Virus record (IMG/VR): IMGVR_UViG_3300003691_000039 | Coordinates: 1-27,093 of that record | Direction: 5' to 3' (one strand) | Length of the DNA: 27,093 nt | Source: a virus | In this document: piece by piece, positions 1,773 through 26,862 of the stretch | How the letters are laid out: every line of letters begins with the position of its first letter | Numbering within the stretch: the stretch's first letter is position 1 | Notes under the pieces: generated by a model | What the model saw: the letters and a program-made list of their open reading frames with translations, nothing else | Told to the model about the DNA's origin: nothing | Databases searched by the model: none | Position numbers and translations under genes: made by a program

Positions 1773-3141
1773 CGCCGCAGAAGAAGAAGTCGAAAGTGTT
1801 TTTATACCGGATAAGCTGGTGCCGGTGTTCACGACCAACCGTGTTACAGCAGTTGTTGACGGTCGAAAGCAGTCTCACCGCATAAGAGTGCGTGGTGCTT
1901 ATGGAGGGAGAGGAAGCGGAAAGACTCGCACGTTTGCACTAATGTCTGCTATACGCGGATATGAGCTTGCATCAGCAGGCAAGAGAGGCCGTATTGTTTG
2001 CGGCAGGGAATATATGAACTCTCTCGATGACAGCTCTATGCTTGAGATTAAGGAGGTCATCGCGTCGATACCTTGGCTCGCTGATTATTACGATGTCGGA
2101 GAGAAGTATATCCGCACGAAAAATAGGCGAATAGAGTTTTCATTCGTGGGCATGCACAAGAACATCGACAGCATTAAATCTAAAGCCAAGATTCATCTAT
2201 TTTGGGCTGATGAAGCCGAAGGTATATCTGATACGGCATGGTCTAAAGTGATCCCGACAGTGCGCGAACACAACTCTGAAATATGGGTGACATGGAACCC
2301 TGAGTTAAAAACCAGCTCGACGGATAAACGGTTCCGTAAAATCAAAGATCCTGACATGCTAGTCGTTGAGCTTAATTACAAGGACAATAAGTTCTTTCCT
2401 GAAGTCATGGAGGTGGAGCGTCAGCGTGACTTAAAACACAACCCTGACAATTACGCGCACATTTGGGAAGGCGGGTACAAAGAACATGTCTCTGGCGCGT
2501 ACTACTCCAAGCATTTAATCGAAGCAAAGAACCAGGGGCGGATTGGTCGCGTAGCTGCCGACCCTTTATTGCCGATCAAATTATTCTGCGATATTGGCGG
2601 AACCGGCAAGTCTTCTGATGCGTTTTCGATATGGGCTGCACAGTTTGTGGGCAGAGAGGTGCGCGTTCTGTCCTATTACGAAGCACAAGGACAGGAAATA
2701 TCCGACCACCTAGGGTGGATGCGCGGCATGGGTTATACTTCGGATAAAGCTGAGGTATACTTGCCCCATGATGGTGCGACAAACGACAAGGTGCACCGAA
2801 CAAGCTATGAAAGTGCGTTTCAGGATGCAGGCTATAAAGCCATCGTGATACCCAACCAGGGCAAAGGCGCAGCGCAAGCGCGGATAGAAGCTGTTAGAAG
2901 GCTTTTCCCGAGCATGTGGTTTAACGAAGCAACAACAGTAGACGGGGTTTACACCCTGGGATTTTACAAAGAGAAGCGCGATGAGAAGAGAGATATCGGC
3001 TTAGGCCCAGATCATGACTTTGCTTCTCACTGTGCTGATGCAATGGGGCTTTTGGCTGTAGCGTATAAGCCACCAAGATCAAATGCGAGACGCGTTATTT
3101 ACAACTCACCAAGAATGTCAGACAGCGTTGCAGGATATTAG
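1765..3141 (+). CDS. terL: Terminase large subunit (TerL), PBSX/Terminase_3-like
   Basis: This is the ATP-driven DNA packaging motor and headful nuclease, which docks on the portal. The ATPase half shows Walker A GGRGSGKT (residues 47-54) and Walker B IHLFWADEAE with D149 and E150. A coupling-motif-like VTWNPE follows about 25 residues later. The RNase H-fold nuclease half shows three acidic positions: D276 in LFCDIGG, D336 in LPHDGA, and the GPDHDFASHCADAM cluster (D416/D418/D425). The length of 458 aa is normal for the family. The start is GTG at 1765, overlapping the small subunit gene and giving a short N-terminal arm before the ATPase. All motifs are intact, so the protein should be active. 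Next downstream is the portal gene, with no intergenic space. Confidence 0.96.
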   Translation: MSNAAEEEVESVFIPDKLVPVFTTNRVTAVVDGRKQSHRIRVRGAYGGRGSGKTRTFALMSAIRGYELASAGKRGRIVCGREYMNSLDDSSMLEIKEVIASIPWLADYYDVGEKYIRTKNRRIEFSFVGMHKNIDSIKSKAKIHLFWADEAEGISDTAWSKVIPTVREHNSEIWVTWNPELKTSSTDKRFRKIKDPDMLVVELNYKDNKFFPEVMEVERQRDLKHNPDNYAHIWEGGYKEHVSGAYYSKHLIEAKNQGRIGRVAADPLLPIKLFCDIGGTGKSSDAFSIWAAQFVGREVRVLSYYEAQGQEISDHLGWMRGMGYTSDKAEVYLPHDGATNDKVHRTSYESAFQDAGYKAIVIPNQGKGAAQARIEAVRRLFPSMWFNEATTVDGVYTLGFYKEKRDEKRDIGLGPDHDFASHCADAMGLLAVAYKPPRSNARRVIYNSPRMSDSVAGY

Positions 3142-5406
3142 ATGTTAGAGATCGGAATGATTGCGAAATTACCCGAGGAAGAGTTGGCGCATCTCTGTGA
3201 AGACATGGATGATGAGGATGTTCAGTCCTTGATCGAGCAGATAGCAGCGCATAAGGCCGAGCAGGATCAGATGGTGCAGTCATTAGGCCAGGCCATTGCA
3301 GGTAAGCGCGCTGAAGCTATCTCCTATCGCAAATCGACGGGCATAGAAGATCAATGGAAGTTGGATGAGGAGTATTACGAAGGCATTATTGAAACTGAAG
3401 CCCGTAATGCTGATTCGCTCCGTCCGTTAGGAAGGGCTGACGTGGAAGCAGAAGAGTCAGGCTCCACTATATTCCTCAACATCACTCGCCCTTATTGCGA
3501 TTCTGCTGGTGCAAGCATGGCTGACATGCTGCTTCCCACGGACGATAATGCATGGGATTTGAAAGATACGCCACTGCCTGAGTTGGTATCGATTGCCAAA
3601 GGGGTATTGCCCCCTCATCTTGAAGAGCAGGCCGCAGCATCGCAAAACCCTGATGAGTTCCGTGCCGCGATTATGAATGATGCGAACGCTATGGCCGAGG
3701 AATCAAAAGCTCAAGTAAGGAAGGCGCAGCTAAGAATTGAAGATTGGCAGGTTGAAGGCCAGTATCACGCTAATGTTCGCAAGATCATTGAGGATTCTGC
3801 AAGAGTAGGCAGTGGAGTTCTTAAAGGACCAATACCCGAGAAGAAGCGATCCGTTGCTTATATTGAGGGTGAGCTGGTTATCAGTGAAAAGATTATTCCC
3901 GTTTCGCGTCGCATTAGCTATTGGAACCTATTCCCAGCTAAAGGTTGTGGCGAGAACATCCATGACGGCAGTTATATATTTGAGCGCGACGATATCTCGA
4001 CAAAGCGTCTGCGCGAATTAACGGGAACGCCTGGCTATCTTGACGATCAAATAATGCTGGCTTTGAGTGAAGGGCCAACGGAAGCGCGCGAAACCACCTG
4101 TAACCCAGGCGATATGAAGCGCGATAGAGCAGGCTTGTTTGAAATATGGTATTTCTACGGAGAAGTAGAGCGCGAAGAGCTGTCCGCAGTATTAGATGCT
4201 GCAGATCGGGACGGCAGCGAGCTTGAAGAAGGCCCGATATACGCACAGATAACTATCGTAAACAATCGCGTGATCAAAGGCGTGCTTAATCCGCTGGAAA
4301 CCGGCGACTTTCCATACGACATTATGTTCTGGCAGCAGCGCAAAAACATGCCATGGGGTATTGGTGTGTCAAGCCAGATTCGCGCCCCGCAAAGAATGCT
4401 ATTAGGTGCTTCGCGAAACTTAATGAATAACGCTGGCTTAGCTGGTGGCCCAATGTGGGCGTTCAACGAAGAAATTCTTGAGCCGATTGACGGCATTGCA
4501 GGTGTCGCCCCACGCAAAGGCTTTAGGCTGGCGCCAGGCGCTACAGAGAATGATCTGAACAAAGGGTTCACTTACTTCACAATCGACATGATGGCCCCGC
4601 AGCTGCAGGGAATCATCAGCCTGGCGCTTAAAATGGCCGAGGATGTCACGGGCCTGCCGACTATTATGCAAGGCCAGATGGGGTCGAGAGGCGGCGACAC
4701 GCTTGGTCAAACTCAGATACTCAACAACAACGCCAATATAGTGCGTCGTCGTATCGCTCGAATGTTTGATGACTTGGTAACAGTCCCGCATATCACTCGG
4801 TACTACACTTACCTATTACAGCATGGCGAAGACGACAGCGAGAAAGGCGACTTTAGCGTTAATGCCCGAGGGTCATCGGCGCTTGTCGAGCGGTCGATAG
4901 AAAAAGATAAGCTCAATGAGTTTATGGGCATGTCATCTAACCCTGTGTACGGTCTTGATCCCAAGAAAGTAGCGAAAGAATTACTGCGGTCTCAGAAGCT
5001 TGACCCAGCTAAGTTTGAATATGACGATGAAGAATGGAAAAACATAGTAGCAAATATGGGACAGGCTCCGGCTGATCCTCGAGTAGAAGTAGCGCAGATC
5101 AGAGAGCAAGGACAGGCAGACAGGCAAGCCGCTGAGCATCAGTCTAAGCAAGCGCTTCAGCAGCAAGAGTATGAGCTCAAAGCAAGCATTCAACAGGCCG
5201 AGGATGAGATCACGCTAGCTGTAGAAGAGATGCGGCACATGGGCAAGAAAGATGTGAACGCAGATACATTAAAAGTACGAATCAACGAAGTAATGCAGAA
5301 ACTCATGGTACAGCGAGAGCTTTCCATGCAATCGATGCAATCCGCATCAAGGCCAGCAGTAGAGCCGGTAGGGCGAGCGCCCGCTGGACAGGCTTATCAA
5401 TATTAA
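3142..5406 (+). CDS. Portal protein (head-tail connector), podovirus type
   Basis: This would form the dodecameric ring through which DNA enters and leaves the capsid. The length of 754 aa matches large portals of short-tailed phages. The N-terminal 60 residues are acidic and helical. Motifs common in podoviral portals follow: an early Asp/Glu-Tyr helix (KLDEEYYEGII), TIFLNITRPYCDSAGASMADMLLPTDD, the wing segment YWNLFPAKGC, and a Trp/Pro-rich stem region (WGIGVSSQIRAPQRML). After that comes PTIMQGQMGSRGGDTLGQTQ, typical of the helix leading into the crown. The last 130 residues are a Gln/Glu-rich coiled coil (residues about 635-735), as expected of a crown or barrel. AGGA at 3132-3135 sits 6 bases before the ATG. 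The gene lies directly after TerL. Confidence 0.9.
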   Translation: MLEIGMIAKLPEEELAHLCEDMDDEDVQSLIEQIAAHKAEQDQMVQSLGQAIAGKRAEAISYRKSTGIEDQWKLDEEYYEGIIETEARNADSLRPLGRADVEAEESGSTIFLNITRPYCDSAGASMADMLLPTDDNAWDLKDTPLPELVSIAKGVLPPHLEEQAAASQNPDEFRAAIMNDANAMAEESKAQVRKAQLRIEDWQVEGQYHANVRKIIEDSARVGSGVLKGPIPEKKRSVAYIEGELVISEKIIPVSRRISYWNLFPAKGCGENIHDGSYIFERDDISTKRLRELTGTPGYLDDQIMLALSEGPTEARETTCNPGDMKRDRAGLFEIWYFYGEVEREELSAVLDAADRDGSELEEGPIYAQITIVNNRVIKGVLNPLETGDFPYDIMFWQQRKNMPWGIGVSSQIRAPQRMLLGASRNLMNNAGLAGGPMWAFNEEILEPIDGIAGVAPRKGFRLAPGATENDLNKGFTYFTIDMMAPQLQGIISLALKMAEDVTGLPTIMQGQMGSRGGDTLGQTQILNNNANIVRRRIARMFDDLVTVPHITRYYTYLLQHGEDDSEKGDFSVNARGSSALVERSIEKDKLNEFMGMSSNPVYGLDPKKVAKELLRSQKLDPAKFEYDDEEWKNIVANMGQAPADPRVEVAQIREQGQADRQAAEHQSKQALQQQEYELKASIQQAEDEITLAVEEMRHMGKKDVNADTLKVRINEVMQKLMVQRELSMQSMQSASRPAVEPVGRAPAGQAYQY

Positions 5407-5415
5407 GGGGAATGA
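5399..5415 (+). repeat. 17-base direct repeat, copy 1 (stop plus ribosome binding site)
   Basis: The sequence AATATTAAGGGGAATGA spans the portal stop codon and the strong AAGGGG ribosome binding site of the next gene. An identical 17-base copy lies at 6136-6152. After one differing base, both copies run into an ATG. Confidence 0.85.
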
Positions 5416-5416
5416 A

Positions 5417-5728
5417 ATGACATTAGCAAAGAAAGCAGCAAAAGCAACATCAAAGACATTAATCAACACTTCTGGCGAAGACGCGGCGGTCAATGTCAGC
5501 GATATTGAGTTTCATGGCAACCCTGATACGTTCAAATTAATCGCTAAAGCCAGCTCTAAAGGCGAGGGCTGGATGAAATCGACCAAGGCAATGCAAGTGA
5601 AAGGCGTAGGCTGTTTTTTACAAGTGACGACTCAACAAGGCGACAACATAGCAGAGGCCGTCACATTCGCGCCCGGAACAAAACTGTTCACTGACCGCGA
5701 CAACAAAACTCACATCGTAGCCCTATGA
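5417..5728 (+). CDS. Unknown phage head-region protein, 103 aa
   Basis: I do not recognise the family. The first 15 residues are Lys/Ala-rich (TLAKKAAKATSKTL). The remainder reads as an all-beta protein, with strands around residues 23-33, 38-46 (TFKLIAKAS), 60-74 (MQVKGVGCFLQVTTQQ) and 80-101. This suggests a small beta-barrel or sandwich, compatible with a capsid-associated or decoration protein. Initiation is strong (AAGGGG, ATG). It is the first gene of a three-gene group between portal and scaffold, and its last four bases (ATGA) overlap the next gene's start. Confidence 0.7.
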   Translation: MTLAKKAAKATSKTLINTSGEDAAVNVSDIEFHGNPDTFKLIAKASSKGEGWMKSTKAMQVKGVGCFLQVTTQQGDNIAEAVTFAPGTKLFTDRDNKTHIVAL

Positions 5729-5946
5729 GCAAGATAGTAAATATCAACGGCAAGCCACTGCGGAAAAAGGAGATGGCGAAAGTCATTTTCTTTAAGTCGA
5801 GTGACGGCGAGGAGTGGGAGCTGATTAAAGGCAATGAAGTGCCGCTTGAAATCAAAAACACGCAGGGCATGATGGATGCTTTGATAGATGGTGAGATTAT
5901 CGAAGCGGTCGGATCATCGTATTACCGAGTGGAGCGCGTCAATTGA
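5725..5946 (+). CDS. Unknown small phage protein, 73 aa
   Basis: The start overlaps the previous stop (ATGA), which implies translational coupling. The product is small, charged and predicted mostly beta: KIVNINGKPLR, AKVIFFKSSDGEEWELI, and a C-terminal SSYYRVERVN strand. No known motif is seen and there is no membrane segment. Because it lies between portal and scaffold it may be a head-maturation or connector accessory, but nothing in the sequence proves this. Confidence 0.65.
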   Translation: MSKIVNINGKPLRKKEMAKVIFFKSSDGEEWELIKGNEVPLEIKNTQGMMDALIDGEIIEAVGSSYYRVERVN

Positions 5947-6143
5947 TTTACGAAATTACGGATACTGACAAATCTAGCGCGCAGTTACAGCGGTTAAAGA
6001 AGCTGTTGGAAGACAGGCTGCTAGTATTGCGCAAAAAGAATGACGAGCTGCTGGCGCTCGATGAGACTTTTAGAACTCGTGGAGCTATCGGCGAAGTTAA
6101 AGCGTTATTGCTGGCGATAGAAAAGAAAGCAATTAAATATTAA
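5943..6143 (+). CDS. Small coiled-coil phage protein, 66 aa (TTG start)
   Basis: The TTG at 5943 overlaps the stop of the previous gene and has GGAG at 5931-5934, so the start is supported despite being non-ATG. After a short strand (MIYEITD) the product is almost entirely one or two amphipathic helices with leucines in heptad-like spacing (AQLQRLKKLLEDRLLVLRKK, then GEVKALLLAIEKK). This indicates a helical hairpin or coiled coil. The function is unknown. Such small helical proteins beside scaffold genes can act in head assembly, but this is inference from position. Confidence 0.65.
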   Translation: MIYEITDTDKSSAQLQRLKKLLEDRLLVLRKKNDELLALDETFRTRGAIGEVKALLLAIEKKAIKY

Positions 6144-6152
6144 GGGGAATGA
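6136..6152 (+). repeat. 17-base direct repeat, copy 2 (stop plus ribosome binding site)
   Basis: This is identical over 17 bases to 5399-5415 and again includes a TAA stop and the AAGGGG ribosome binding site of the following gene, here the scaffold. The two copies bracket a three-gene group. Confidence 0.85.
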
Positions 6153-6153
6153 T

Positions 6154-7014
6154 ATGGGTGCTGCAGCGACAGAATTAACAGCAGAGCAAGAACTGAAAGA
6201 CATTGAAGATGCGTTTATGGCGGGGCAGGAATCCGCCGCTGATAGCGCCGAGCCTGAGATTAAAGATGAAGTGATCGAGGCTGCCGAAGAGGCAGCGCCT
6301 GAAATTGTTGAAGACGACCAGCTTGGCGAGACGGTTGTGGAGGCTGGAGATACTGACCCCATACCAGAAGCAACCGCCAGTGAATTAAACATATCTGACG
6401 AAGCGATGGATAAGATTGAAGCCGCGCTGATGAAGAAGATAGGACGCAGGCTGCATAATCTCGAGGGTAATGTCGGTGGGTTTAGTCAAAAGCTAGCACT
6501 CATGCAACAGGCAAAAGAAAAAGTCGCCGACGCGCCTGCAGAGAAGAGCAAAGAATCTGAAGAGATGGCCACGTTGCGCGAAGAGCTACCAGAAATAGCC
6601 AGCGCTTTTGACCTCCAGGCCAGACAGGCTAATCAAAAGTTTGCCGAATCAGAGCAGCTTTTGAATCAAGCGGGCAGTGAAATACAGCAGCTCAGAAATA
6701 TGCGCCAACTTGACGGCTCATTCCCTGGGTGGGAAACAACAATTAATAGCGATCATTATCAGAACTGGGTAATGAATCAAACAGAACAGTATATTAATGT
6801 AGCAATGAATAGCCAGAATGTTAACGATGCCGTTCAGGTTCTATCCGATTACCATGACGCTCATAGGCCGCTTGTCGACCATGACGCTGGTAATCAAGAA
6901 CTGGAAGCGACAAAGCCAAACACACTGCTTGCCGATGCTATTGCCCCAACACGGGGCGCAGGTGGATCAACTCGACGACGCAAAACAGCGCAAGAAGAGT
7001 TTGATTCTGCATAA
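6154..7014 (+). CDS. Capsid scaffolding protein
   Basis: This is the likely internal scaffold that guides capsid shell assembly and then leaves the head. It lies immediately before the major capsid gene, the normal scaffold position. The composition also fits: the first 90 residues are strongly acidic and Ala/Glu-rich (for example DEVIEAAEEAAPEIVEDD), residues 95-185 are helical and Gln/Glu-rich with coiled-coil character, and the C-terminal 30 residues end in a short basic patch (STRRRK), which in scaffolds often contacts the shell. The length of 286 aa is typical. No protease motif is visible, so it is probably not a protease-scaffold fusion. Initiation is strong (AAGGGG, ATG). Confidence 0.78.
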   Translation: MGAAATELTAEQELKDIEDAFMAGQESAADSAEPEIKDEVIEAAEEAAPEIVEDDQLGETVVEAGDTDPIPEATASELNISDEAMDKIEAALMKKIGRRLHNLEGNVGGFSQKLALMQQAKEKVADAPAEKSKESEEMATLREELPEIASAFDLQARQANQKFAESEQLLNQAGSEIQQLRNMRQLDGSFPGWETTINSDHYQNWVMNQTEQYINVAMNSQNVNDAVQVLSDYHDAHRPLVDHDAGNQELEATKPNTLLADAIAPTRGAGGSTRRRKTAQEEFDSA

Positions 7015-7040
7015 AATGTAGGATGTAACGGTACAAGGTC

Positions 7041-8096
7041 ATGGCAACACAACTCTATGCAACAGCAACACCACGAATTGGCAAACTGAAGGGCGAAATT
7101 CTCCCCCGCGCCATCCCCAAAATGGTGCTCGGGATTTCAGGCGATCAGAAGAAGATCGGCAAAAACCAGAGCGATACAATCGTCTATCGACGATGGCTTC
7201 CGAAAGGCGGCTCTACTGCTGGTACGGGCGCTGATTTCGCTGCCAATATCAACAAATGGGATATTGACCCAGCGGCACAACTTTTAGCGGAAGGTGGAGC
7301 GCCTGCTGCTGAAACACTGACCCCGCAAGATATTACAGTTCAGCTTCAGGAATACTACCTTCTGTTCAGCTACTCCAGTAAAACAGCCGAACTGTACGAA
7401 GATAAAATCCCTCCTGCGATGAAAATTCAGGTCGGCGAAGGCATGGGCCTATTGCGTGAAATGATTGACTGGGGTGCGCTCAAAGGCATTACTAATGCGT
7501 TCTACGCTGGCGGTACAAGTTTGGCCACGGTTGACGAGCCTCTTAGCCTTGCTCTTTTGCGGCGCGCCACGAAGTCTATCAAAGGCAATCGCGGATCATT
7601 CGCCACTGAAGTATTAACCGGTGACAAGAACTGGGCAACATACCCTGTTGAGCGCGGCTATATCGTTTACGCTAGCTCAGATTGCGAGAATGATATTCGC
7701 AACCTGCCAAAGTTTCGTGAAACCTCCGAGTACGCCAATCGCCAGGTTCTTCATGATTGCGAAATCGGCTCTGTTGAAGGCTATCGTTTTATCATCTCAC
7801 CTGAGCTGACGGCCACGCCCGATGCTGGTGGTGCTATTGCGTCAACCGGCCTGGTGTCCACCACTGGTGCCAACATTGATGTTTATCATTATGTGGTAGT
7901 TGGTCAGGACGCATGGGCTAACCTCGCCCTTCGCGGTATGGATTCATTCGGTGTTATTGACGTGCCTTATGATCGACCAGATAGTGGCAACCCGCTTGGC
8001 ACTAAAGGGTTTATCGGTGCTCGTATGCACGCTGCTGCATTCATCCAGAACGATGGCTGGTGTGCATTGCTTAATTGCGGTGCTACCGATATCTAA
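7041..8096 (+). CDS. Major capsid protein, N4-gp56 family
   Basis: This is the shell-forming HK97-fold protein. The whole length (351 aa) has the pattern of the N4-gp56 major capsid family. An N-terminal arm ends in LPRAIPKMVLG and is followed by a TIVYRRW strand. EGGAPAAETLTPQDITVQLQ comes next, then a YLLFSYSSKTAELYED segment and a long spine-like helix (AMKIQVGEGMGLLREMIDWG). A C-terminal WANLALRGMDSFGVIDVPY and a GFIGARMHAAAFIQNDGW strand complete the pattern. The nearest Shine-Dalgarno-like sequence, AAGG at 7035-7038, is only 2 bases from the ATG, which is unusually close for a highly expressed gene. A terminator-like hairpin follows the gene. Confidence 0.93.
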   Translation: MATQLYATATPRIGKLKGEILPRAIPKMVLGISGDQKKIGKNQSDTIVYRRWLPKGGSTAGTGADFAANINKWDIDPAAQLLAEGGAPAAETLTPQDITVQLQEYYLLFSYSSKTAELYEDKIPPAMKIQVGEGMGLLREMIDWGALKGITNAFYAGGTSLATVDEPLSLALLRRATKSIKGNRGSFATEVLTGDKNWATYPVERGYIVYASSDCENDIRNLPKFRETSEYANRQVLHDCEIGSVEGYRFIISPELTATPDAGGAIASTGLVSTTGANIDVYHYVVVGQDAWANLALRGMDSFGVIDVPYDRPDSGNPLGTKGFIGARMHAAAFIQNDGWCALLNCGATDI

Positions 8097-17382: not shown

Positions 17383-20300
17383 ATGACCGAGTATGACTTT
17401 ACTAATGCAGTTGACCCGTTCGCCGATGCTGTTAACCCGTTTAACGAAGATGAATTTGATTTTACTGACGCTGCTGATCCGTTTGCAGGAGCTGTAAATC
17501 CGTTCGACGAACCTACCGAAGAAGAGGGTCGATCATGGGGTGATGTTGCCAGCGACGCAGGCAGCGCAGTCATGGGCGGCTTCAGCTCTTTAGCTGCTGG
17601 GCTTAATTATGCCAACAGGTACAACCCATTAAAAATACTTGCTGACAAGGTGGTTGACTTGTCCGGCGGTGATTCTGGCGCTCTCGATGATGAGTTAACC
17701 CGAACAATAGATAGGTCTACAGACTATTGGAATGAGCAAAAATCCGATGAGATGAAGGCGGCTCAAGGCGCTTTTAGAAAAGCTGACGGTTTTATCGATT
17801 CAGGCAAAGCGATCATTAACAACCCTATGCTAGTGGGTGATTTCGTTGCAGGTTCTGCTCCTCACATGCTAGTTCCCGGCATGGCGGCTAGAGCTACAGC
17901 GGCAAAGTTCGGCACAGTTGCTGCCGGTAAAGTTGGCTGGGCTGTAGGCTCAGTAATGGAAGGGCTTGACGCGGGTGCGTCGAACTACAGCAAAGCTCTC
18001 GGTATGTCTAAAGATGACCTTAAAGATTATTCTGCCGACTACATAGCGCTGACCGGGGAAGGCGTAGAGCATGATGACGCTGTTCGCCAGATTGCATCAG
18101 AGGCGGGCAGGGAAGCGCAAATTATTTCCACTGGAATATCAATGGTGGCGGGCAAGCTAACCGGTGCGCCTGATATCGAGGCCAGGTTCTTTTCTGGCGA
18201 AGGTGTTAAAAACATTTTCTCAACGTTGATGCGCGAGTCGGCAGAAGAAGCGGCACAGGAAGGCGGCAATCAATTTGGCCAAAACTTTGGCATGGCGACC
18301 GGCGCAGATTCCCGCGTCGGCCTTACTGACGATATTGGCAAGGCGGCGGCATCAGGCATTGCCGGTGCTATTGGGCAGAGTGGTGGCATGCACTTGGCTG
18401 GCGGCTTGGTATCAGAGGTTAAACGCACTCCAGAGCAGGCAGGACAGGCCGCCAGAGAAGATACGGCAGCCAAAGGTGGCGATGCATTAGATCAAGAAAT
18501 GGCAGCCTCTAACGCATCGCTGGGGGCGCAAGAGGAGTTATTGAAGCCTCCGGCATGGTTGAGAGAAAAAGAGACGACGCCAGGACGTGATCGCATTATT
18601 GATTTAAGTCGGCCAATGCAAGAGGGCGAGGTCATCGACCTGATGAACCCTGATGCTAATAGTGATAGTAACGGCACGTTTATACCTGGCCCGGTGCAAG
18701 ACTGGGATTTATCGCCAGAGATTGAAAGTGCTTCGCCGGTGATGGTTGAAGATACTGATCTGCCAACACAGGCCCGCAACCTGCAAGAACAAGACACGCA
18801 GCCATTGATGGCAGTCGATGAGGTTATTCAGCCGCAAGAATTTACCCCGCTTCAAGATCAAAGTTATCCACAGGCCGAGGAAGTCATTGTGGATAACTTG
18901 CCAGCGGAGCCAGAAATAACACCGCAAGAAGAGGCTAAACTACAGCTGGCAGCAGAGCAAAGCGAAAGGGCTAAGCGCTTATCCGTCATCAATAAAGACA
19001 AAGACAGCATGCGTGTGGCTGTCACTAAGCTGGGCGGCCTAAATAAAGACTCGCAGCAGGACATCACTGGAGGCTTATCGACTAATCGTAATGTGCCGGG
19101 TGTTGGATTTGTGTTCGCGAAGAAAGGCACGTCGATTGACGACATGGCGATGCGCCTACATGAGCAGGGTTATATCCCAGCGGCAGAAATGGAAAACCTT
19201 GGCGGAGTGCCTTATTTAACTGAGGCTCTTGGCGCAGAGCTAAGCGGCATGGGGACTACCTATGCGGTAGAGTCGAAAGCAAACGACGCGGCGCTTGAGC
19301 AGCAAGAAGCAGATGCTCGGGAAGCCTTCGAGTTTGAAGAGCAAGCAATTCTTGACCAGGCCAAAACCGAGCGCGATAACATCGACTTGGAGATGCGGCA
19401 ATTTCAGGAGGCATACCCAGAAGCCGGGGCGACCTCAAAACCCAGTCGAATGGAGGCTGAAATAAATGAATACTACCAATCCGTTGAGCAAGCACCAGGC
19501 GCGGGAGCAGTGGCTCAAGCTGGAGGCCAAGCGCAAGCAGATTATGAAGCGGCAGGCGTTGAGCATACGCAAGCTAAAGACCGCCGCTCAGAATCGAGAG
19601 GCCCGGAGCGCCGATCTAACGAAGGGCGACGCGAGCGTATAAACGCTATGGGCCAAGACGAGATCATGGCCGAGCTTTACACTGACGCGCTTACCGGTAC
19701 TGGTAATCGCCGTGCATACGAAGAAGATTTAAAAGAATCTAAAAGCATTGCCTATATTGATCTTGATGGCTTGAAATACATCAATGACACAATGGGGCAT
19801 GAAGCAGGCGATAGGCTTTTGTCTGGCTTTGGAAAGGCGATGTCTGATGCTGGTGTTAATGGCTTCCACATCTCTGGTGACGAGTTTGCAATATTAGCCG
19901 ATTCACCCAAAGAAGCAGCGGCAGCAGTCAAGAAACTTGAGGCCGAGGCAAGCAAGGCTGTAATCAGAAGCGGCGACAACGAGTTAACCGGCATTGCGTT
20001 TAGTCATGGCATTGCATCGACAGCGAAAGAAGCCGACACACTAATGGCTGAGCACAAAGTGGAGCGTGAAAAGCAAGGCTTGCGATCTGCCCGAGGCGAA
20101 GCGCCGCCTAATCTTTCAAACAGGAAGGCCAAAGAAGGCTTGACGCTTGATATTGAGCAGGACGGCAAGGTAGCGCCTGATAACTCTAAAGCGATAGCCG
20201 CGGCAGAAACAAAAGCACAGGTTGACAGAGAGGCGGAACACTTCGCGCTTGATGGCGATAGCCTGGCGGTGAGCGTAGAAAAGCCCACGCCTCAAGCCGA

Positions 20301-23300
20301 TATATTCGATGCGCCAAAAAAGCCATCATTGCGGGAAAGGGTTAATAAAAGGAATGGCGAATCGGCAATAGCGAAGCCCGGCAAACCCCCAGTCATGCTG
20401 TTTTCACGCAGCAAATCAAACCTGTTTGTCACGCACAATATAAGCGAAGAAGGCGTTATTGCCGCTGATGATCTTGGTGGATTGGCAGCGCCATCACTAG
20501 CCATCGCAAGAGTTGATCTTGACGGGTTTAATGAGTTTGGGGAAATATCATTACTAGCAGAGCCGAGCATATTAGAGTCGAGTAAGGCCCGTGTTTTTGA
20601 TGCTGATATTTATTCCCCTCGCCAAGCCCGTGCGCATCACAAAGTTGACCGGAAAGCATTGAATAGTTTTGTTGACGCGCTAGCATCGCCAGAAGAGGGG
20701 GTGTCTTTCAGAGCGCCTGATGCCGATATGATAGGCGATCAGAATGGATTCCATGCATTCACTCGCAGCGAGGCGGTGATATACGACTACCTTCATGGAA
20801 TAGGAAAAGCACCAAAACTTAAAAAGAAAAAAGTTTCTTTGCGTATTATTAAAGCCTCGAAAATAGAAGGCATTCCTCACGAGCTGCGAACAAACCCTGA
20901 ATTTATAAAGCTGGCAGAGCAGGAATATAGAGACAAGATAAAAAAATCTGGGGATAATTTAGATAGGGCTGAGCGATTGGAAAAAGCGTTCTTCAATGGC
21001 TCTGGCGGATCACTAAACCCTCAGTTGCTGGCCAGCATGGCCGATGATGTCAATGTTTATAAGTCTAGCACAGGTATGGATGAGGGCCAGTTCAGGCGCG
21101 ACCTTCATAAGAAACTGAGAATCAAGAGTGTCCAACAGGGTTTTGATAACCATGTGAAGCAAGCCTTTGATGGCTTGGTAAAAGGCAAGGTTTTATACAA
21201 AGGAACCGACGACTTTGGCCGCCAGAAATATGTAAACTACACGCTGGATAGCGTCGTAAAAGACATGACACAGCAACTTCAGGCTGGAGAAAGCTTCTTC
21301 CATGGCGCAGGGCAGGTGAGATCAGCTTACGCGAAAGAACTAAAAACGGTTGCCCGTGTAAAAGAAGCGCGGAATAAGATCATTCCCAATAGCGATATGG
21401 CCGCCATTAAAGATCAGGCAACAGATGTTCTAAACGATGCTTTAGATAAGTTGAAGCCTTATTATAAATTCGATGCGGAAAGTTATAGCTACTCGCAAGA
21501 TGCTAGCTTAGCGCTGACAGAAGGCCGCGCAGGAATAGTCGAAACATTTGAGATCACGCCAGAATCAACACAAATCATTGCCGACTTAACAGAGTATTTG
21601 CGGTCGCTTGACACTGATTACTTTGAGGCAAAGATGCAGCGCTCAGTGCAGTTCAGTGAATTTGACACGGCGATTGTGCCTAAAGGTATTAAGCCAGACG
21701 CGCTGAAATCTTTGAAAGATGCTGGCTTAAAGATCAGATATTACGACGATAGAATTGAGGGGAAATCCCGACAGGATGTGGTTGCGAAACAAGAGCGTCT
21801 ATTATTCTCAAAAGAGGAAAGCCAAAATCAATCCAGCCCTGCTGACACAGTCCCGGTCGTTACCGAAAAAGGCAAGGCTGAAGTAGATCCTAAAGGGCTA
21901 AGCACAAAAACAGCGCAGCTAATTACCAATAAATTCCTAAAAAAATACAAAGGTGCAAGCGATGTCACAGTGCGGGTACATGACACTCAAGAAAATGCAT
22001 TTGGCCCGCAGTCCAGGGATTCACACGGCAAGATTAAAGCCGGATATGACCCAAAAACAGACACCCTCTACATTGTCGCTGCCAACATGGACGGCATCAA
22101 AGACCTTCAAGCCACACTGCAGCACGAAATAATTGCGCACAAAGGGCTAGGGTTTTTCAAGAAAGAAGATGTCGATCACCTGCTAAAAATCATTGAAGAG
22201 GCGGCACCCAAAAGTAAAAAGCTAGCGCCAATTTGGGGCAAGGTTAATAAAGATTACGCGGGCGAGTCAGGCGCGGTAAGAGCAGAGGAATTATTTGCCG
22301 CAGTATCAGAAACAAAAATGTCTGCGCTTGATAAATATTGGAACAAAATTATAACTGCTGTGCGCGACCTGCTTAGAAAAGCAGGCTGGGTAACTGAGCC
22401 TTCTTTCAGTGATATGCGCGCAATGCTCTACGATATGGGCCAAGCATTTAAAGATGGCAAACAAGCCAGAAGCCGAACAACGGGAGATAGCAATGAGAGA
22501 GACAACACAGCAAATGATGGAACGGTTTATCGAAAAGAACAAGACGACCCCTATGCGGCCCTCATCGCCGACGCGCAAGCCGACATCGAAAGCGTGGAAA
22601 GCGATGGAACGCTTGACGGGTATTGGTCGGGCGAAGAAGTAACGCTCCTACACAGGTCTCACAATGCGTTTAATTCGTTTGATGATGCAAAGCTAAATAG
22701 CAATACCGGTACAACCACTAGCCTGCTTGGCCACTTCCTATCCTTCGAGGATGCCGGGGCCGACAAGTACGGCGCGCACCAGAGTTCGCACAAGGTAAAG
22801 CTGAAGAAGGTCTACGCTCTGTCAGAGAGTGACTTCGCGGATCTTGGCGACCTGTCATCGGCTGAAGTTTCTGCCATGAGAGATGCGCTAATGGCCGCAG
22901 GTTATGAAGGCATGGCAGTTGACGGGCTGGGCTGGGCTATTGTGTTCGAGGGCAAGAGTTTATCAAAAGTTGCTGATGACACTGGCATTATGTTCAGCCG
23001 CGAACAATCACCGCTTGGCCTTCACAGCTCAGCCGAAAGATACATTGAAAACTTGGGTAGCGTATTCAAGCAAAAAGGCACTACGTCTGGCGACCGCGTA
23101 TTAATCAGGCTGGAGAAATCCAACGTAACGCCGGACGAAATAGCGATACTTGGATTGCCGGAATTCCTACAAGGGCGACAGGTCACCAGGCCCGAAACAC
23201 TCGCTTTTATTCGCAGCAATGGCTTGCGGATTGACGAGGTGGTGGCCGTCGATCCAGAGGCGAATGGAGCAGTCGGAGAGCGGCTTCATTTTGAGCAAGT

Positions 23301-26300
23301 CCATGATGATAACAGCGATCTTGGTATGGATGTATATGCCGCCGAAATCATCGGCAATACTCACATATTTATAACTGGTACAGAGGAGGCTGGATGGACT
23401 GTAATACGAGACGACCACGAGACAGGCGAGGTGTATAACGACGGGATAGGGTCTGTATCAGAGGCAAAAATACAAGCTAACGAGTGGGCGAGTGACTTAG
23501 GCTTGCTAAACGAAACAGGCGAAGAAGATGCGAAGTACATCGACTACACAGAGAATGGCGAGTTTGATAATTACCGCGAAAACAAACTAATCCTGCCTAA
23601 CAGTGAAGGCATTTACGAAGGCGGCCACTTCAACGACGACAACGTGCTGGCATTCACCCGCGTTACTGACCGGGAGATTGACGGCGATAACACCTATTTT
23701 ATCGAAGAAATGCAGAGCGATTGGCATTCTGATGCAAGGAAGGCTGGCGGATATGATGGGCCGACACAGCATGATATGTGGCAAGAGAAAGATGAAGCAA
23801 AGGAGGCTTTGGCCAAAAAAAGCGCGGAAGTGTACGCAAATCTATCAGCTAAAGACAAGCAGCTTGCCGGATCAGAAACCGCTTTTTACTACGACGCTGT
23901 AAAAAACGACTACCAAAAGCTAGCAGATGGCGCGGTTGGCAATAGCGATAAAAGAGAGCTTGCCAGCCTGGTCGCAGCCAGAGACAAGAGCGTAAACAAG
24001 GCAAGAACCTTTAAGCCAGCCCCTCCAGACGCCCCATTTAAAGGCGACAAGTGGCTAGCCCTCACTATGAAGCGCACTCTTATCGACGCAGCAGGGCGAG
24101 GCGCAGAGGCTATCGCATGGCCTTCCGGCAGGATGATGAGCGAACGATGGTCGGATAGTTTCGACTACACCGCGCAGTACGATAAAAAAATGAAGTCTAT
24201 CGTCAAGAAACTGACAGGCATCGAGCCGAAACTAAAGTCAGTCGACTGGAATAATGACGACAGTAAAATATGGTCTGCACCATTACCAAAAGAGGCCCGC
24301 GATAAAATCACCGATAACGGCTTTATGATGTTCAGCCGTGAAGCTGAGTCAACGCGAGACTACACGCCAGAGCAGGAAGCGGCAATCAATGTGGGTGGAT
24401 TTGGGCAGCGCACTAAGAAGCCGTTCAAAGAAAAGTACGAAGAAGCAAGGTATCGAATAAAAAACAAACTACGCCAAAAAGTGGTCGATCAATACGATTC
24501 GTTTAAATCAGTTATTGGAGACAACAAAGCATGGATGATGGCTCACTTAAGCCGCTCATCAAACGGCGCGCTTGAGGCCGCCATGCAGTACGGCCACGTC
24601 GTGCTTGATGATAGCGGGGCCATAGATGTAGTCGAAGGCACGAAAGGGCTGGAGGATACGCTAAAGCCGCTTGGTGCTGAGCTAGATGATTGGCTTATGT
24701 GGATAGCCGGCAATAGAGCTGAGAAGCTGTCTTTTGAGGGGAAAGAAAATCTCTTTGATGGTCAAAATATCCAAGCCCTTAAATCGCTTTCTGATGGCAC
24801 ACTGAAAAACGGAGATAGCCGACTAGAGCTTTATGAAAGTGTTAGGACAGACTTTGAAGCGCTGGGCAATTCTATTACCCAAGTCGGTGTTGATACAGGT
24901 CTCATCAACAAAGAAGAGGCAATAGCTTGGGAAGAGGAGGGCTTCTACCTTCCTTTTTACCGCATGATTGAAGATGGCGGGCGCGGTCCTGGGTCTTTCG
25001 GTAGCGGCTTGGTTAGACAGTCGGCCTATAAGAAGTTGAAAGGTGCCGATATGCAGCTTAATGACCTGCTCACAAACGTTCTTATGAACTGGAGCCACAT
25101 TTTAGGCGCTGGCTTAAAGAACCAAGCCGCGGCGGCAGCGCTTGATAGCGCTAGCAATATAGGATTGGCCACAAAAACAAACAAACATGCAAAAGGAAAA
25201 GATGCCGTTTACGTTAGAGATAATGGGAAAGAGGTATGGTACGACATAGCCGGAGGGCAAGATGGGGCGCTTGTTCTGGAGTCCTTGTTATCCCTAAATC
25301 AAGAGGGGCTGAATAATCCAGCAATGAAGGCGCTTAGAGCGTTCAAGCGAGTGCTAACCATAGGCGTGACAGCATCGCCAAACTTCAAAATTGCGAACCT
25401 GTTCCGGGATACGATACAGGCCATTGCTGTAGCGGACATGAGTACCAATATTGCCAAGAATTTATACGAGGGGTTCCAGTCCACTAAGAAGGGTTCTCGA
25501 ACCATTAACAGGATGGTGGCCGGCGGCGGGGCGTTTGGCGATTCTGGGTACATCCATGGCGCAGATCCAGAAGCTGTAAGGTTTTTGGTGAACAAAGGGA
25601 TTAAGCGCAACACTATTTTGACGCCAAAATATATCAGCACTTTGTGGGATAAGTATCAGGACTTTGGGGCTAGGCTGGAGAACGTAAACCGGGCGGCCAA
25701 TTTCGACCAAGCTATCAATAAAGACAAAGACCTTTTGACAGCAAACTTTGAAGCAAGAGACCATCTTGATTTCTCCCGCACTGGCTCATCTACAGCGGTA
25801 CGGGCATTAGCGGGGATGGTTCCGTTTCTTAATGCGAGACTACAAGGGCTTGATAAACTTAGCCGTTCGGCTATGGATAAAAACCAACGCCGTCAATTTT
25901 CAGTTGTTGTGGGCATGTACTCACTGGCATCAATGGCGCTGTATTTATCAATGAAAGACGATGAGGATTATCAAGACGCAGAAGAGTGGGAGAAAGACAC
26001 CTACCACTTATTCAAGCTTCCTGGATCTAATGTAATGTACCGGCTACCACGACCGTTCGAGGTTGGCGCTATAGCGTCCACGGCAGAGCGATTGCTTGAA
26101 CAGTTGGTTGATGATGAGGTTCACGGAGAGTTGTTTGCCGAAAGACTTTGGCACACGATCAGCCATACATTTGCCTTTAACCCAACACCGCAAGCCGTTA
26201 AGCCAATGGTTGAAATCTGGGCAAACAAGAACAGCTTTACCGGGCGCGGCATTGAGTCTGCCAGTATGAAAAATTTGTCACCGACTGAGAGAAAAAGAGC

Positions 26301-26862
26301 TTGGACAAGTGAAACGGCTATATTAGCAAGCCATGGAATGGACAAAATTACATGGGGTAAAGTTGTATTGTCGCCATTACAGATAGATCATCTTGTTAGG
26401 GGATATCTTGGCTGGGCTGGATCAACAGCAGAGGCGGGGCTTGATATCGCAATCAGGCAAGCCACAGATGCGCCGGTTAAACCGTCGATGCAGATATCAG
26501 ACTACCCGGTCATAGGCAGGTTCGCACGCGAGGGTGATGGCCGGTCGTCAAAATACATTACGACATTCTATGATCGACTCAACAAAACAACGCAGTTATA
26601 TGCGGATATAAGGCAGGCGAGAGAATACGGCGATCTTGCTACAGCTACAAAATTGAGGCGCGAAGGCAAAGGAATCTTGCGACACAAGGCGGCCTTAGCA
26701 AAAGTGCAGCGCAAGCTATCACAGATCAGAAAGAAAATGACCAGGATACATTTAAGTCGAACAATGAGCGCAAAAGAAAAGCGCGATAGCTTAAACAGAT
26801 TGCAGAGGATGCAGAAGAAATACGCAGCGCTTGCGGTTAAGCGCTCAGACAAAGACTTTTAG
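17383..26862 (+). CDS. Giant polyvalent virion protein (GGDEF, zincin-, ART-, LPD38-like), 3159 aa
   Basis: This single open frame fills a third of the window. Visible order: residues 5-46 duplicated DPF/NPF segment; about 50-360 Ala/Gly-rich helices; 360-540 disordered, Gln/Glu/Pro-rich; 540-640 a polyvalent-type module (VPGVGFVFAKKGTSIDDMAM); 640-755 coiled coil then an Arg-rich stretch; 755-910 GGDEF; 1010-1465 polyvalent modules (THNISEEGVIAADDLGGLAAPSLA and onward); 1480-1690 zincin-like with HEIIAH; 1745-1865 ART-like; 1875-2315 a module with FIEEMQSDW; 2325-3159 an LPD38-like C-terminus with PVIGRF and a basic tail. Polyvalent proteins of this type are known from phages and conjugative elements and are thought to be delivered with the DNA. 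AGGGC (17372-17376) precedes the ATG. No RNA polymerase motifs of the N4 virion enzyme are visible. The order of domains is seen directly; delivery into the host is inferred. Confidence 0.93.
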   Translation: MTEYDFTNAVDPFADAVNPFNEDEFDFTDAADPFAGAVNPFDEPTEEEGRSWGDVASDAGSAVMGGFSSLAAGLNYANRYNPLKILADKVVDLSGGDSGALDDELTRTIDRSTDYWNEQKSDEMKAAQGAFRKADGFIDSGKAIINNPMLVGDFVAGSAPHMLVPGMAARATAAKFGTVAAGKVGWAVGSVMEGLDAGASNYSKALGMSKDDLKDYSADYIALTGEGVEHDDAVRQIASEAGREAQIISTGISMVAGKLTGAPDIEARFFSGEGVKNIFSTLMRESAEEAAQEGGNQFGQNFGMATGADSRVGLTDDIGKAAASGIAGAIGQSGGMHLAGGLVSEVKRTPEQAGQAAREDTAAKGGDALDQEMAASNASLGAQEELLKPPAWLREKETTPGRDRIIDLSRPMQEGEVIDLMNPDANSDSNGTFIPGPVQDWDLSPEIESASPVMVEDTDLPTQARNLQEQDTQPLMAVDEVIQPQEFTPLQDQSYPQAEEVIVDNLPAEPEITPQEEAKLQLAAEQSERAKRLSVINKDKDSMRVAVTKLGGLNKDSQQDITGGLSTNRNVPGVGFVFAKKGTSIDDMAMRLHEQGYIPAAEMENLGGVPYLTEALGAELSGMGTTYAVESKANDAALEQQEADAREAFEFEEQAILDQAKTERDNIDLEMRQFQEAYPEAGATSKPSRMEAEINEYYQSVEQAPGAGAVAQAGGQAQADYEAAGVEHTQAKDRRSESRGPERRSNEGRRERINAMGQDEIMAELYTDALTGTGNRRAYEEDLKESKSIAYIDLDGLKYINDTMGHEAGDRLLSGFGKAMSDAGVNGFHISGDEFAILADSPKEAAAAVKKLEAEASKAVIRSGDNELTGIAFSHGIASTAKEADTLMAEHKVEREKQGLRSARGEAPPNLSNRKAKEGLTLDIEQDGKVAPDNSKAIAAAETKAQVDREAEHFALDGDSLAVSVEKPTPQADIFDAPKKPSLRERVNKRNGESAIAKPGKPPVMLFSRSKSNLFVTHNISEEGVIAADDLGGLAAPSLAIARVDLDGFNEFGEISLLAEPSILESSKARVFDADIYSPRQARAHHKVDRKALNSFVDALASPEEGVSFRAPDADMIGDQNGFHAFTRSEAVIYDYLHGIGKAPKLKKKKVSLRIIKASKIEGIPHELRTNPEFIKLAEQEYRDKIKKSGDNLDRAERLEKAFFNGSGGSLNPQLLASMADDVNVYKSSTGMDEGQFRRDLHKKLRIKSVQQGFDNHVKQAFDGLVKGKVLYKGTDDFGRQKYVNYTLDSVVKDMTQQLQAGESFFHGAGQVRSAYAKELKTVARVKEARNKIIPNSDMAAIKDQATDVLNDALDKLKPYYKFDAESYSYSQDASLALTEGRAGIVETFEITPESTQIIADLTEYLRSLDTDYFEAKMQRSVQFSEFDTAIVPKGIKPDALKSLKDAGLKIRYYDDRIEGKSRQDVVAKQERLLFSKEESQNQSSPADTVPVVTEKGKAEVDPKGLSTKTAQLITNKFLKKYKGASDVTVRVHDTQENAFGPQSRDSHGKIKAGYDPKTDTLYIVAANMDGIKDLQATLQHEIIAHKGLGFFKKEDVDHLLKIIEEAAPKSKKLAPIWGKVNKDYAGESGAVRAEELFAAVSETKMSALDKYWNKIITAVRDLLRKAGWVTEPSFSDMRAMLYDMGQAFKDGKQARSRTTGDSNERDNTANDGTVYRKEQDDPYAALIADAQADIESVESDGTLDGYWSGEEVTLLHRSHNAFNSFDDAKLNSNTGTTTSLLGHFLSFEDAGADKYGAHQSSHKVKLKKVYALSESDFADLGDLSSAEVSAMRDALMAAGYEGMAVDGLGWAIVFEGKSLSKVADDTGIMFSREQSPLGLHSSAERYIENLGSVFKQKGTTSGDRVLIRLEKSNVTPDEIAILGLPEFLQGRQVTRPETLAFIRSNGLRIDEVVAVDPEANGAVGERLHFEQVHDDNSDLGMDVYAAEIIGNTHIFITGTEEAGWTVIRDDHETGEVYNDGIGSVSEAKIQANEWASDLGLLNETGEEDAKYIDYTENGEFDNYRENKLILPNSEGIYEGGHFNDDNVLAFTRVTDREIDGDNTYFIEEMQSDWHSDARKAGGYDGPTQHDMWQEKDEAKEALAKKSAEVYANLSAKDKQLAGSETAFYYDAVKNDYQKLADGAVGNSDKRELASLVAARDKSVNKARTFKPAPPDAPFKGDKWLALTMKRTLIDAAGRGAEAIAWPSGRMMSERWSDSFDYTAQYDKKMKSIVKKLTGIEPKLKSVDWNNDDSKIWSAPLPKEARDKITDNGFMMFSREAESTRDYTPEQEAAINVGGFGQRTKKPFKEKYEEARYRIKNKLRQKVVDQYDSFKSVIGDNKAWMMAHLSRSSNGALEAAMQYGHVVLDDSGAIDVVEGTKGLEDTLKPLGAELDDWLMWIAGNRAEKLSFEGKENLFDGQNIQALKSLSDGTLKNGDSRLELYESVRTDFEALGNSITQVGVDTGLINKEEAIAWEEEGFYLPFYRMIEDGGRGPGSFGSGLVRQSAYKKLKGADMQLNDLLTNVLMNWSHILGAGLKNQAAAAALDSASNIGLATKTNKHAKGKDAVYVRDNGKEVWYDIAGGQDGALVLESLLSLNQEGLNNPAMKALRAFKRVLTIGVTASPNFKIANLFRDTIQAIAVADMSTNIAKNLYEGFQSTKKGSRTINRMVAGGGAFGDSGYIHGADPEAVRFLVNKGIKRNTILTPKYISTLWDKYQDFGARLENVNRAANFDQAINKDKDLLTANFEARDHLDFSRTGSSTAVRALAGMVPFLNARLQGLDKLSRSAMDKNQRRQFSVVVGMYSLASMALYLSMKDDEDYQDAEEWEKDTYHLFKLPGSNVMYRLPRPFEVGAIASTAERLLEQLVDDEVHGELFAERLWHTISHTFAFNPTPQAVKPMVEIWANKNSFTGRGIESASMKNLSPTERKRAWTSETAILASHGMDKITWGKVVLSPLQIDHLVRGYLGWAGSTAEAGLDIAIRQATDAPVKPSMQISDYPVIGRFAREGDGRSSKYITTFYDRLNKTTQLYADIRQAREYGDLATATKLRREGKGILRHKAALAKVQRKLSQIRKKMTRIHLSRTMSAKEKRDSLNRLQRMQKKYAALAVKRSDKDF
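17395..17520 (+). repeat. Tandem 21-residue duplication at the giant protein's N-terminus
   Basis: Residues 5-25 and 26-46 share DFTxAxDPFAxAVNPFxE. The repeat is 63 bases long. Amino acids are conserved better than codons, so the duplication is old or codon-diverged. The segment is acidic and probably disordered. Confidence 0.85.
19645..20112 (+). other. GGDEF (diguanylate cyclase) domain inside the giant protein
   Basis: Residues about 755-910. The family makes cyclic di-GMP from two GTP. Visible signatures are DALTGTGNRRAY (768-779), then YIDLDGLKYINDTMGHEAGD (791-810), then SGDEF (831-835). Aligned by eye to PleD, the metal ligand is D793, the guanine-binding residues are N801 and D810, and the catalytic-loop acids are D833 and E834, so all are present. 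The inhibitory I-site RxxD nine residues before the signature is absent (residues 822-825 are DAGV). The C-terminal tail LRSARGEAPPN matches what I remember of GGDEF domains in other phage giant proteins. No EAL, HD-GYP or sensor domain is seen nearby. Confidence 0.9.
20410..21780 (+). other. Large polyvalent-protein-associated modules, central block
   Basis: Residues about 1010-1466. Recognisable phrases of phage polyvalent proteins are VTHNISEEGVIAADDLGGLA (from 1015), a FGEISLL strand, VFDADIYSPRQAR, then YKGTDDFGRQKYVNYTLDSV. The block ends with DTAIVPKGIKPDALKSLKDA. These blocks recur together in phage and conjugative-element giants, but their biochemical activity is not established. I do not assign numbered families. 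Confidence 0.6.
21823..22452 (+). other. Zincin-like metallopeptidase module (HEIIAH)
   Basis: Residues about 1481-1690. LQATLQHEIIAHKGLGFF carries H1581, E1582 and H1586. A downstream helix RAEELFAAVSE (E1635/E1636) could give the third zinc ligand. The HExxxH spacing differs from the usual HExxH but is known in M49 peptidases (HEXXGH), and an equivalent HE..GH phrase is frequent in phage polyvalent proteins. The module closes with YWNKIITAVRDLLRKAGW, a typical ending. Peptidase activity is not proven. Confidence 0.6.
22482..22486 (+). promoter_or_regulatory. Internal ribosome binding site-like GGGAG in another frame
   Basis: GGGAG is followed after 6 bases by an ATG (22493) that opens a 49-codon frame, +1 relative to the giant protein. 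It is better placed than the site of several genuine genes in the window. Confidence 0.4.
22493..22642 (+). CDS. Possible nested small gene inside the giant gene, 49 aa
   Basis: The frame is +1 to the giant gene, in its linker between the zincin-like and ART-like modules. The product would be basic and hydrophilic: MRETTQQMMERFIEKNKTTP (1-20), then a Pro/Ser/Lys-rich middle and KAWKAMERLTGIGRAKK. It starts with ATG behind GGGAG at ideal spacing. The composition is more protein-like (helical, balanced, no runs of Ser, Arg or Leu) than other shadow frames here, and the giant-frame translation at this place is low complexity. It may be a real overprinted gene, a fossil of an earlier gene or frame change, or chance. 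Confidence 0.3.
   Translation: MRETTQQMMERFIEKNKTTPMRPSSPTRKPTSKAWKAMERLTGIGRAKK
22618..22974 (+). other. ADP-ribosyltransferase-like module
   Basis: Residues about 1746-1864. LLHRSHNAFNSFD (H1757) resembles the first strand of ART-fold domains in polyvalent proteins. GHFLSFEDAGADKYG (1783-1797) resembles the second conserved segment. KKVYALSESDF and GWAIVFEGKSL (E1856) complete the pattern. The match is by pattern only; the acceptor glutamate and NAD-binding residues cannot be assigned with certainty. Confidence 0.45.
23005..24327 (+). other. Polyvalent module with SPLG start and FIEEMQSDW signature
   Basis: Residues about 1875-2315. It opens QSPLGLHSSAERYIENL and contains EIAILGLPEFLQGRQVTRPE. 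FIEEMQSDWH lies at 2106-2115, and PDAPFKGDKWLALTMKRTL from 2215. IAWPSGRMMSERW follows. This is one of the commonest modules in phage polyvalent proteins. Its conserved Glu, Gln, Asp and Trp suggest an enzyme or ligand-binding site, but no activity is known to me. Confidence 0.65.
24355..26862 (+). other. LPD38-like C-terminal region with basic tail
   Basis: Residues about 2325-3159. It includes KIANLFRDTIQAIA, ARDHLDFSRTG (2791-2801), VPFLNARLQGLDKLSR (from 2813) and YRLPRPFEVGAIASTAERLL (from 2886). VEIWANKNSFTGRGI and SDYPVIGRFARE (3039-3050) follow. These match my memory of LPD38 and of the PLxRFG-type ending of phage giants. MYSLASMALYLSM (around 2850) is hydrophobic enough to contact membrane. 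The last 90 residues are strongly Lys/Arg-rich helix, which could hold DNA in the capsid. Confidence 0.62.

Follow-up and report, generated by a model that had tools for sequence, protein, structure and literature searches.

What role could a GGDEF domain of the diguanylate cyclase (DGC) type play inside a giant phage protein, and would it reach the host cell together with the phage DNA? This question is raised by a 3159-codon ORF in the window, i.e., the whole stretch of 27,093 bases analyzed here, a virus record from a virus of bacteria. Genes for terminase, portal and major head proteins lie upstream of this ORF, and several unassigned genes are also present in the window (Table 1).

Table 1. 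Features of the window related to the giant protein and its GGDEF domain (nucleotide positions within the window; residue numbers refer to the 3159-aa protein).
Feature	Position	Strand	Evidence or remark
Small and large terminase, portal/head-tail adaptor, major head protein	1254..8096	+	PHROGs
Giant protein, polyvalent-protein type, 3159 aa	17383..26862	+	Last gene of the structural module in the contig
N-terminal segment, aa 107-383, glycine/alanine rich	17701..18531	+	N-terminal part of phrog_2206 (phage virion RNA polymerase family)
GGDEF domain, phage 'SGDEF' clade, aa ~756-909	19648..20109	+	Pfam, AF2 model, PDB DGC matches
Metal/GTP motif D793-x-D795-G-L-K798-Y-I-N801	19759..19785	+	D793, D795, N801 77/77 (partly circular, motif used for retrieval); K798 72/77
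Active-site hairpin H829-I-S831-G-D-E-F835	19867..19887	+	G832, D833, E834 kept 66/66
Phosphate-binding end K892...R901, spacing 9, then (S/A)xRGExPP	20056..20085	+	K892 76/76, R901 74/76, spacing 9 in 76/76
PBECR5 predicted RNase domain, aa 1011-1194	20413..20964	+	Pfam 5.3e-15
Probable zincin metallopeptidase block, aa ~1505-1690, motif HEIIAH	21895..22452	+	Kept in giant proteins with and without GGDEF
Conserved C-terminal scaffold, aa 2345-3159	24415..26859	+	52-53% to L257/L258, 36% to Achromobacter phage CF418P1, 27% to PTXU04 gp25
LPD38 domain, aa 2860-3044	25960..26514	+	Pfam 1.6e-35

A GGDEF domain in a polyvalent phage protein

The sequence-only reading had placed the domain at nt 19645-20112, corresponding to aa ~755-910, and this position, the ORF and the numbering of D793, N801, D810 and S831-G832-D833-E834-F835 all proved right. 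The similarity is far beyond chance, as the Pfam GGDEF profile (PF00990) matches with an E-value of 3.2e-12 (47.0 bits versus a cut-off of 23.8). In addition, TIGR00254 scores 42 bits (cut-off 37.4), and a genome-scale scan recovered the domain at 6.9e-16 and 52.8 bits, free of stops. An AlphaFold (AF2) model built on 69 sequences shows a confident GGDEF fold (mean pLDDT 96.2, pTM 0.89), whose best solved neighbors are DGCs and related GGDEF proteins, with Z values of 14-16.6 in the top rows. Among these matches are SiaD and PleD complexed with GTP-alpha-S (2v0n; Z 15.0, rmsd 2.1 over 132). Also in agreement with the earlier reading, neither a sensor nor an EAL domain was recognized by Pfam in the 3159-aa protein.

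With GGDEF, PBECR5 and LPD38, the ORF combines at least two unrelated domains, including LPD and PBECR types, on one phage polypeptide, and is hence classified as a polyvalent protein. Its N-terminal segment matches phrog_2206 (whole-protein E-value 2e-26; positions 174-464 of 3406 in the profile covered), the match being confined to the N-terminal part, and the polymerase domain of N4-type virion RNA polymerases was not seen in the 3159-aa protein. This N4-vRNAP-like segment may represent a packaging or membrane-passage module. By eye, a stretch at aa ~1780-1915 (about 22720-23130) resembles ADP-ribosyltransferases; the Pfam ART-PolyVal profile did not match there.

Active site and phage clade

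Relatives of the domain were retrieved from viral contigs by a pattern search for the DxD..ND or SGDEF motif (105 relatives, 80 kept), and this set, further relatives and the window yielded 77 distinct domains with a mean pairwise identity of 37%. Because retrieval by motif biases the counts, the invariance of D793, D795, N801 and D802 is partly circular, and the hairpin, K892 and R901 were counted on domains fetched via the other motif. Retrieval via DxD without SGDEF accounted for 67 domains, one of which is truncated; Gly-Asp-Glu and K892 are retained in each of the other 66, and R901 in 64. Of the guanine contacts expected from PleD, N801 occurs in all 77 domains and D810 in 70, the other seven having Asn at the latter position. 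By homology to PleD, we take D793, K798, N801, H806, D810, D833, E834 and K892 to be the metal-, guanine- and phosphate-binding residues, while R901 faces PleD residue 447, the neighbor of R446, where the structural alignment ends.

Accordingly, the claim that every residue expected for a working GGDEF domain is present holds for the metal/GTP set (DxD, N, D, DE and K), which is complete and constrained, but not for its surroundings. There, S831 replaces the first Gly of the motif and H829 the Arg usually preceding it, helix alpha-1 falls about 10 residues short of its length in solved DGCs (T771-D793 comprising 20-22 residues in most members), and the C-terminal Lys-Arg spacing is 9 compared to 4 in canonical DGCs. 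Across the clade, His prevails at position 829 (56 domains, versus 20 with Arg) and Ser at position 831 (59, versus 12 with Gly). None of the four departures (S831, H829, alpha-1 length and Lys-Arg spacing) reflects decay; all are family traits. For nine close pairs with usable values, dN/dS amounts to 0.09-0.29 in eight and 0.38 in one (L030/L044), values that are rough because synonymous sites are near saturation in several pairs; on this estimate, the GGDEF domain is under purifying selection.

The earlier observation of a missing I-site was likewise confirmed, RxxD being absent five residues before the motif (D822..V825) not only here but also in 76 of the 77 clade members. Absence of the I-site is nothing unusual among DGCs and, taken alone, does not imply that activity is unregulated. 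DGCs need to form dimers for activity. As to the altered motif, SGDEF is active in ECA3270 (PMC3974145) and has also been reported in other active DGCs (PMC9683572), whereas Ser at the first motif position abolished activity in VCA0965 (PMC3974145), so that activity of the SGDEF variant depends on context.

In a maximum-likelihood tree of 79 rows, the phage sequences, including the stand-alone YuA type, split from bacterial SGDEF cyclases with 100/99 support; as the SGDEF motif served to pick the outgroup and bootstrap values had not quite converged, the clade is claimed relative to the retrieved bacterial SGDEF cyclases. Two of 80 prokaryotic contigs score like phage members (145-156 bits versus at most 98 for the rest) and encode the domain within long ORFs. 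Both clade members (L097 and L098) had been binned into bacterial genomes, namely an Acidobacteria and a Deltaproteobacteria MAG, respectively, and are probably phage or prophage contigs. A tblastn search of 50,697 phage records for isolates with a clade GGDEF in a giant protein gave strong scores only for the Yuavirus/Vojvodinavirus stand-alone type, and a tblastn search of plasmids did not find any clade GGDEF.

Giant-protein context and cargo exchange

Embedding in long polypeptides is the rule within the clade, with 65 of 75 distinct relatives residing in ORFs of 900 aa or more, mainly 1500-4500 aa long, and the remaining ten in ORFs of 158-665 aa, most of which are stand-alone genes. In 46 complete giant ORFs, the GGDEF domain begins, by median, 28% of the way into the protein, and in alignments of the giant proteins it is nearly the sole conserved stretch. 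Companions assigned by Pfam include InPase, LPD38, LPD22, RadC, ART-PolyVal, polyvalent kinase and helicases. One 3447-aa ORF (L051) bears two clade GGDEF domains in tandem (aa 1072-1237 and 1376-1547). About 16 distinct giant proteins with GGDEF also contain InPase (PF18823), frequently adjoining the domain; in L003, L022, L023, L029, L035, L037, L041, L045 and others InPase is located within tens of residues of GGDEF, on either side, which may be coincidental. The idea of a coupled pyrophosphatase was rejected, as only one of 80 independently fetched InPase loci also has a GGDEF domain, and no specific coupling is claimed since InPase is a common polyvalent domain.

L257 and L258, the two viral proteins most closely related to that of the window, share 52-53% identity with it over aa ~2330-3159, i.e., about 800 C-terminal residues, whereas they do not possess a GGDEF domain and their N-terminal parts are largely different. 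Similarly, the giant proteins of CF418P1, phiARM81mr, PTXU04 and Vibrio phage 1.232.O have only the peptidase-like block and the C-terminus in common with the window protein. As the nearest scaffold relatives keep the C-terminus in the absence of GGDEF, the latter is an exchangeable cargo.

The giant phage proteins retrieved contain 83 instances of the peptidase-like block, and HExx[AG]H plus an invariant downstream Glu is present in 41 sequences. Pfam gave no match above noise for the block, with MPTase-PolyVal (PF18818) also unmatched. Its AF2 model has a mean pLDDT of 75, and the nearest solved structures are zincin metallopeptidases at Z values of at most 7.2, among them the antirestriction protein ArdC at 4.8. 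The model is no more than suggestive; the block is probably a zincin and a probable processing peptidase. The scaffold homologue PTXU04 gp25 is essential according to CRISPRi-ART and is listed among proteins that are toxic on expression or interfere with infection (PMC11879866).

Proposed delivery, alternative roles and known systems

For the window protein, the position in the structural module, LPD38, PBECR5 and the N4-vRNAP-like N-terminus speak for what is most likely the route, namely late synthesis of the protein, incorporation into the virion and ejection along with the DNA. The GGDEF domain would then be one exchangeable payload in the N-terminal half, carried by a scaffold consisting of the conserved C-terminal half and the metallopeptidase-like block, and the peptidase may release the payloads. 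The domain is predicted to make c-di-GMP from GTP, and a cyclase free of product inhibition would drive up the c-di-GMP level of the cell just infected. Neither EAL nor PilZ domains were detected in 48 phage records, many of them fragments, so that a phage-encoded c-di-GMP eraser or receptor was discarded as candidate and the host's own pathway is considered the target. Hence, a PilZ/EAL-type network of the host might be pushed toward a low-motility, altered-surface state, presumably to the benefit of the phage. Taken together, that a competent cyclase domain travels as cargo of a polyvalent virion protein and raises c-di-GMP in the host has, from sequence comparison, about even chances in our view. 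The core of the sequence-only reading, a competent-looking GTP-cyclase fold lacking the I-site within a structural-module giant protein with polyvalent domains, is upheld, but a proposal along these lines had already been made (Iyer et al., 2017). We consider it conceivable, though with somewhat less confidence, that a phage-dedicated DGC lineage serves as interchangeable virion-delivered cargo within giant polyvalent proteins of many uncultured phages, with setting of c-di-GMP at entry being widespread and the Yuavirus-type phages having it as a small gene.

Against an active DGC speak the unusual H829, short alpha-1 and long K-to-R spacing as well as the seven members with Asn at D810, and in the literature found, enzyme activity is reported for no clade member. 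Regarding packaging, no virion proteomics of phages of the window type was found in the literature, and peptide fingerprinting of PTXU04 assigned four gel bands to gp7, gp10, gp11 and gp12, not to the giant protein gp25 (PMC6563267). An active cyclase that is not delivered by the virion, with the giant protein acting late in the producing cell (assembly or lysis) or the domain acting during lysogeny, is a less probable alternative. It would fit the stand-alone YuA-type subclade, which is nested within the clade and has gp44 flanked by gp43 and the anti-restriction gene gp45, ahead of the terminase genes. It would also fit the overproduction of biofilm by LK3 lysogens, whose phage carries the clade gene (PMC8471281), a correlation only, as there are many other phage genes. 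However, the embedding of 65 of the 75 distinct domains in ORFs of at least 900 aa, many with phage polyvalent domains, and the placement of the window ORF at the close of the structural module argue against this alternative.

Receptor-type GGDEF domains usually keep the RxxD I-site and lose the active motif, which is the reverse of the pattern in the window domain. Moreover, GDE, K892 and the DxD/N/D set are retained throughout the clade. It is therefore unlikely that the domain is catalytically silent and, by binding GTP or c-di-GMP, serves the giant protein in a regulatory or structural capacity, although S831 and H829 are non-canonical and degenerate GGDEF domains can serve as receptors (background in PMC3974145). 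Even lower is the probability of an active nucleotidyltransferase with another product, such as linear pppGpG, a mixed cyclic dinucleotide or a decoy nucleotide disturbing cyclic-nucleotide defence. Changes in the first shell, namely S831, H829 and the long spacing between Lys and Arg, could shift the outcome, the D810 guanine contact is Asn in seven members, and interference with nucleotide-based responses has been proposed by Iyer et al. (2017; PMC5512222). On the other hand, N801 is invariant (partly by way of retrieval) and D810 is kept in 70 of 77 domains, as in c-di-GMP cyclases, and PADLOC found no defence-system match in the 3159-aa protein. Ser has been reported at the D810-equivalent position of GGDEF domains making cGAMP, whereas the window domain has Asp. 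Finally, chance similarity or a decayed remnant is refuted by the E-values, the conservation, the purifying selection and the confident fold.

The sequence-only reading had mentioned GGDEF domains in other phage polyvalent proteins and regarded their function as undescribed. The former is correct (PMC5512222), whereas roles have already been proposed, both there and in the record of YuA gp44, whose annotation names a diguanylate-cyclase domain and adds 'putative role in host cell conversion'. A phrase search of the literature for phage-encoded diguanylate cyclase found no paper. Compared with the literature searched, the single phage clade linking polyvalent and YuA types, its size, the catalytic signature and the behavior as exchangeable cargo appear new. 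Phages may thus commonly tamper with c-di-GMP in infected cells; if true, this messenger controlling motility, surface and biofilm would be a direct early target of many phages, via an enzyme delivered before any phage gene is read. The clade might also provide compact cyclases without product inhibition for structural comparison.

With the canonical DGCs PleD, SiaD, DgcR and WspR, the window domain shares the fold (Z 14-16.6) and the active-site residues, but these enzymes are usually sensor-linked and show GG(D/E)EF, a longer alpha-1, a Lys-Arg spacing of 4 and often an RxxD I-site. Ser at the first motif position is shared with ECA3270, which is active, and CdgB, described as a dual-function enzyme (PMC3974145, PMC9683572), both being bacterial chromosomal proteins, unlike the window domain. 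Similar in context are the polyvalent GGDEF proteins of Iyer et al. (2017; PMC5512222), where the domain likewise resides inside a giant multi-domain phage protein and is predicted to be an injected effector, with interference with host nucleotide signaling or action against rivals proposed as roles. That paper calls GGDEF 'not very widespread' in polyvalent proteins, gives an Acetonema longum prophage protein as an example and, in the passages considered, contains no clade, residue or cargo-exchange analysis. The giant proteins PTXU04 gp25 and CF418P1 have the homologous C-terminal scaffold (27 and 36%, respectively) and the peptidase-like block but no GGDEF domain, CF418P1 bearing InPase in the N-terminal half instead. 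A further known system is the stand-alone GGDEF of Yuavirus/Vojvodinavirus (YuA gp44, MP1412 and Bordetella CN1), which belongs to the same clade (100/99) with up to 41% identity and has SGDEF, the short alpha-1, the K..R spacing of 9, the RG end and the missing I-site in common with the window domain, whereas it is a separate 156-aa gene outside the virion module and has Arg in place of H829. As phages of this type are cultured, with LK3 shown to lysogenise (PMC8471281), activity and phenotype of a clade member are measurable now.
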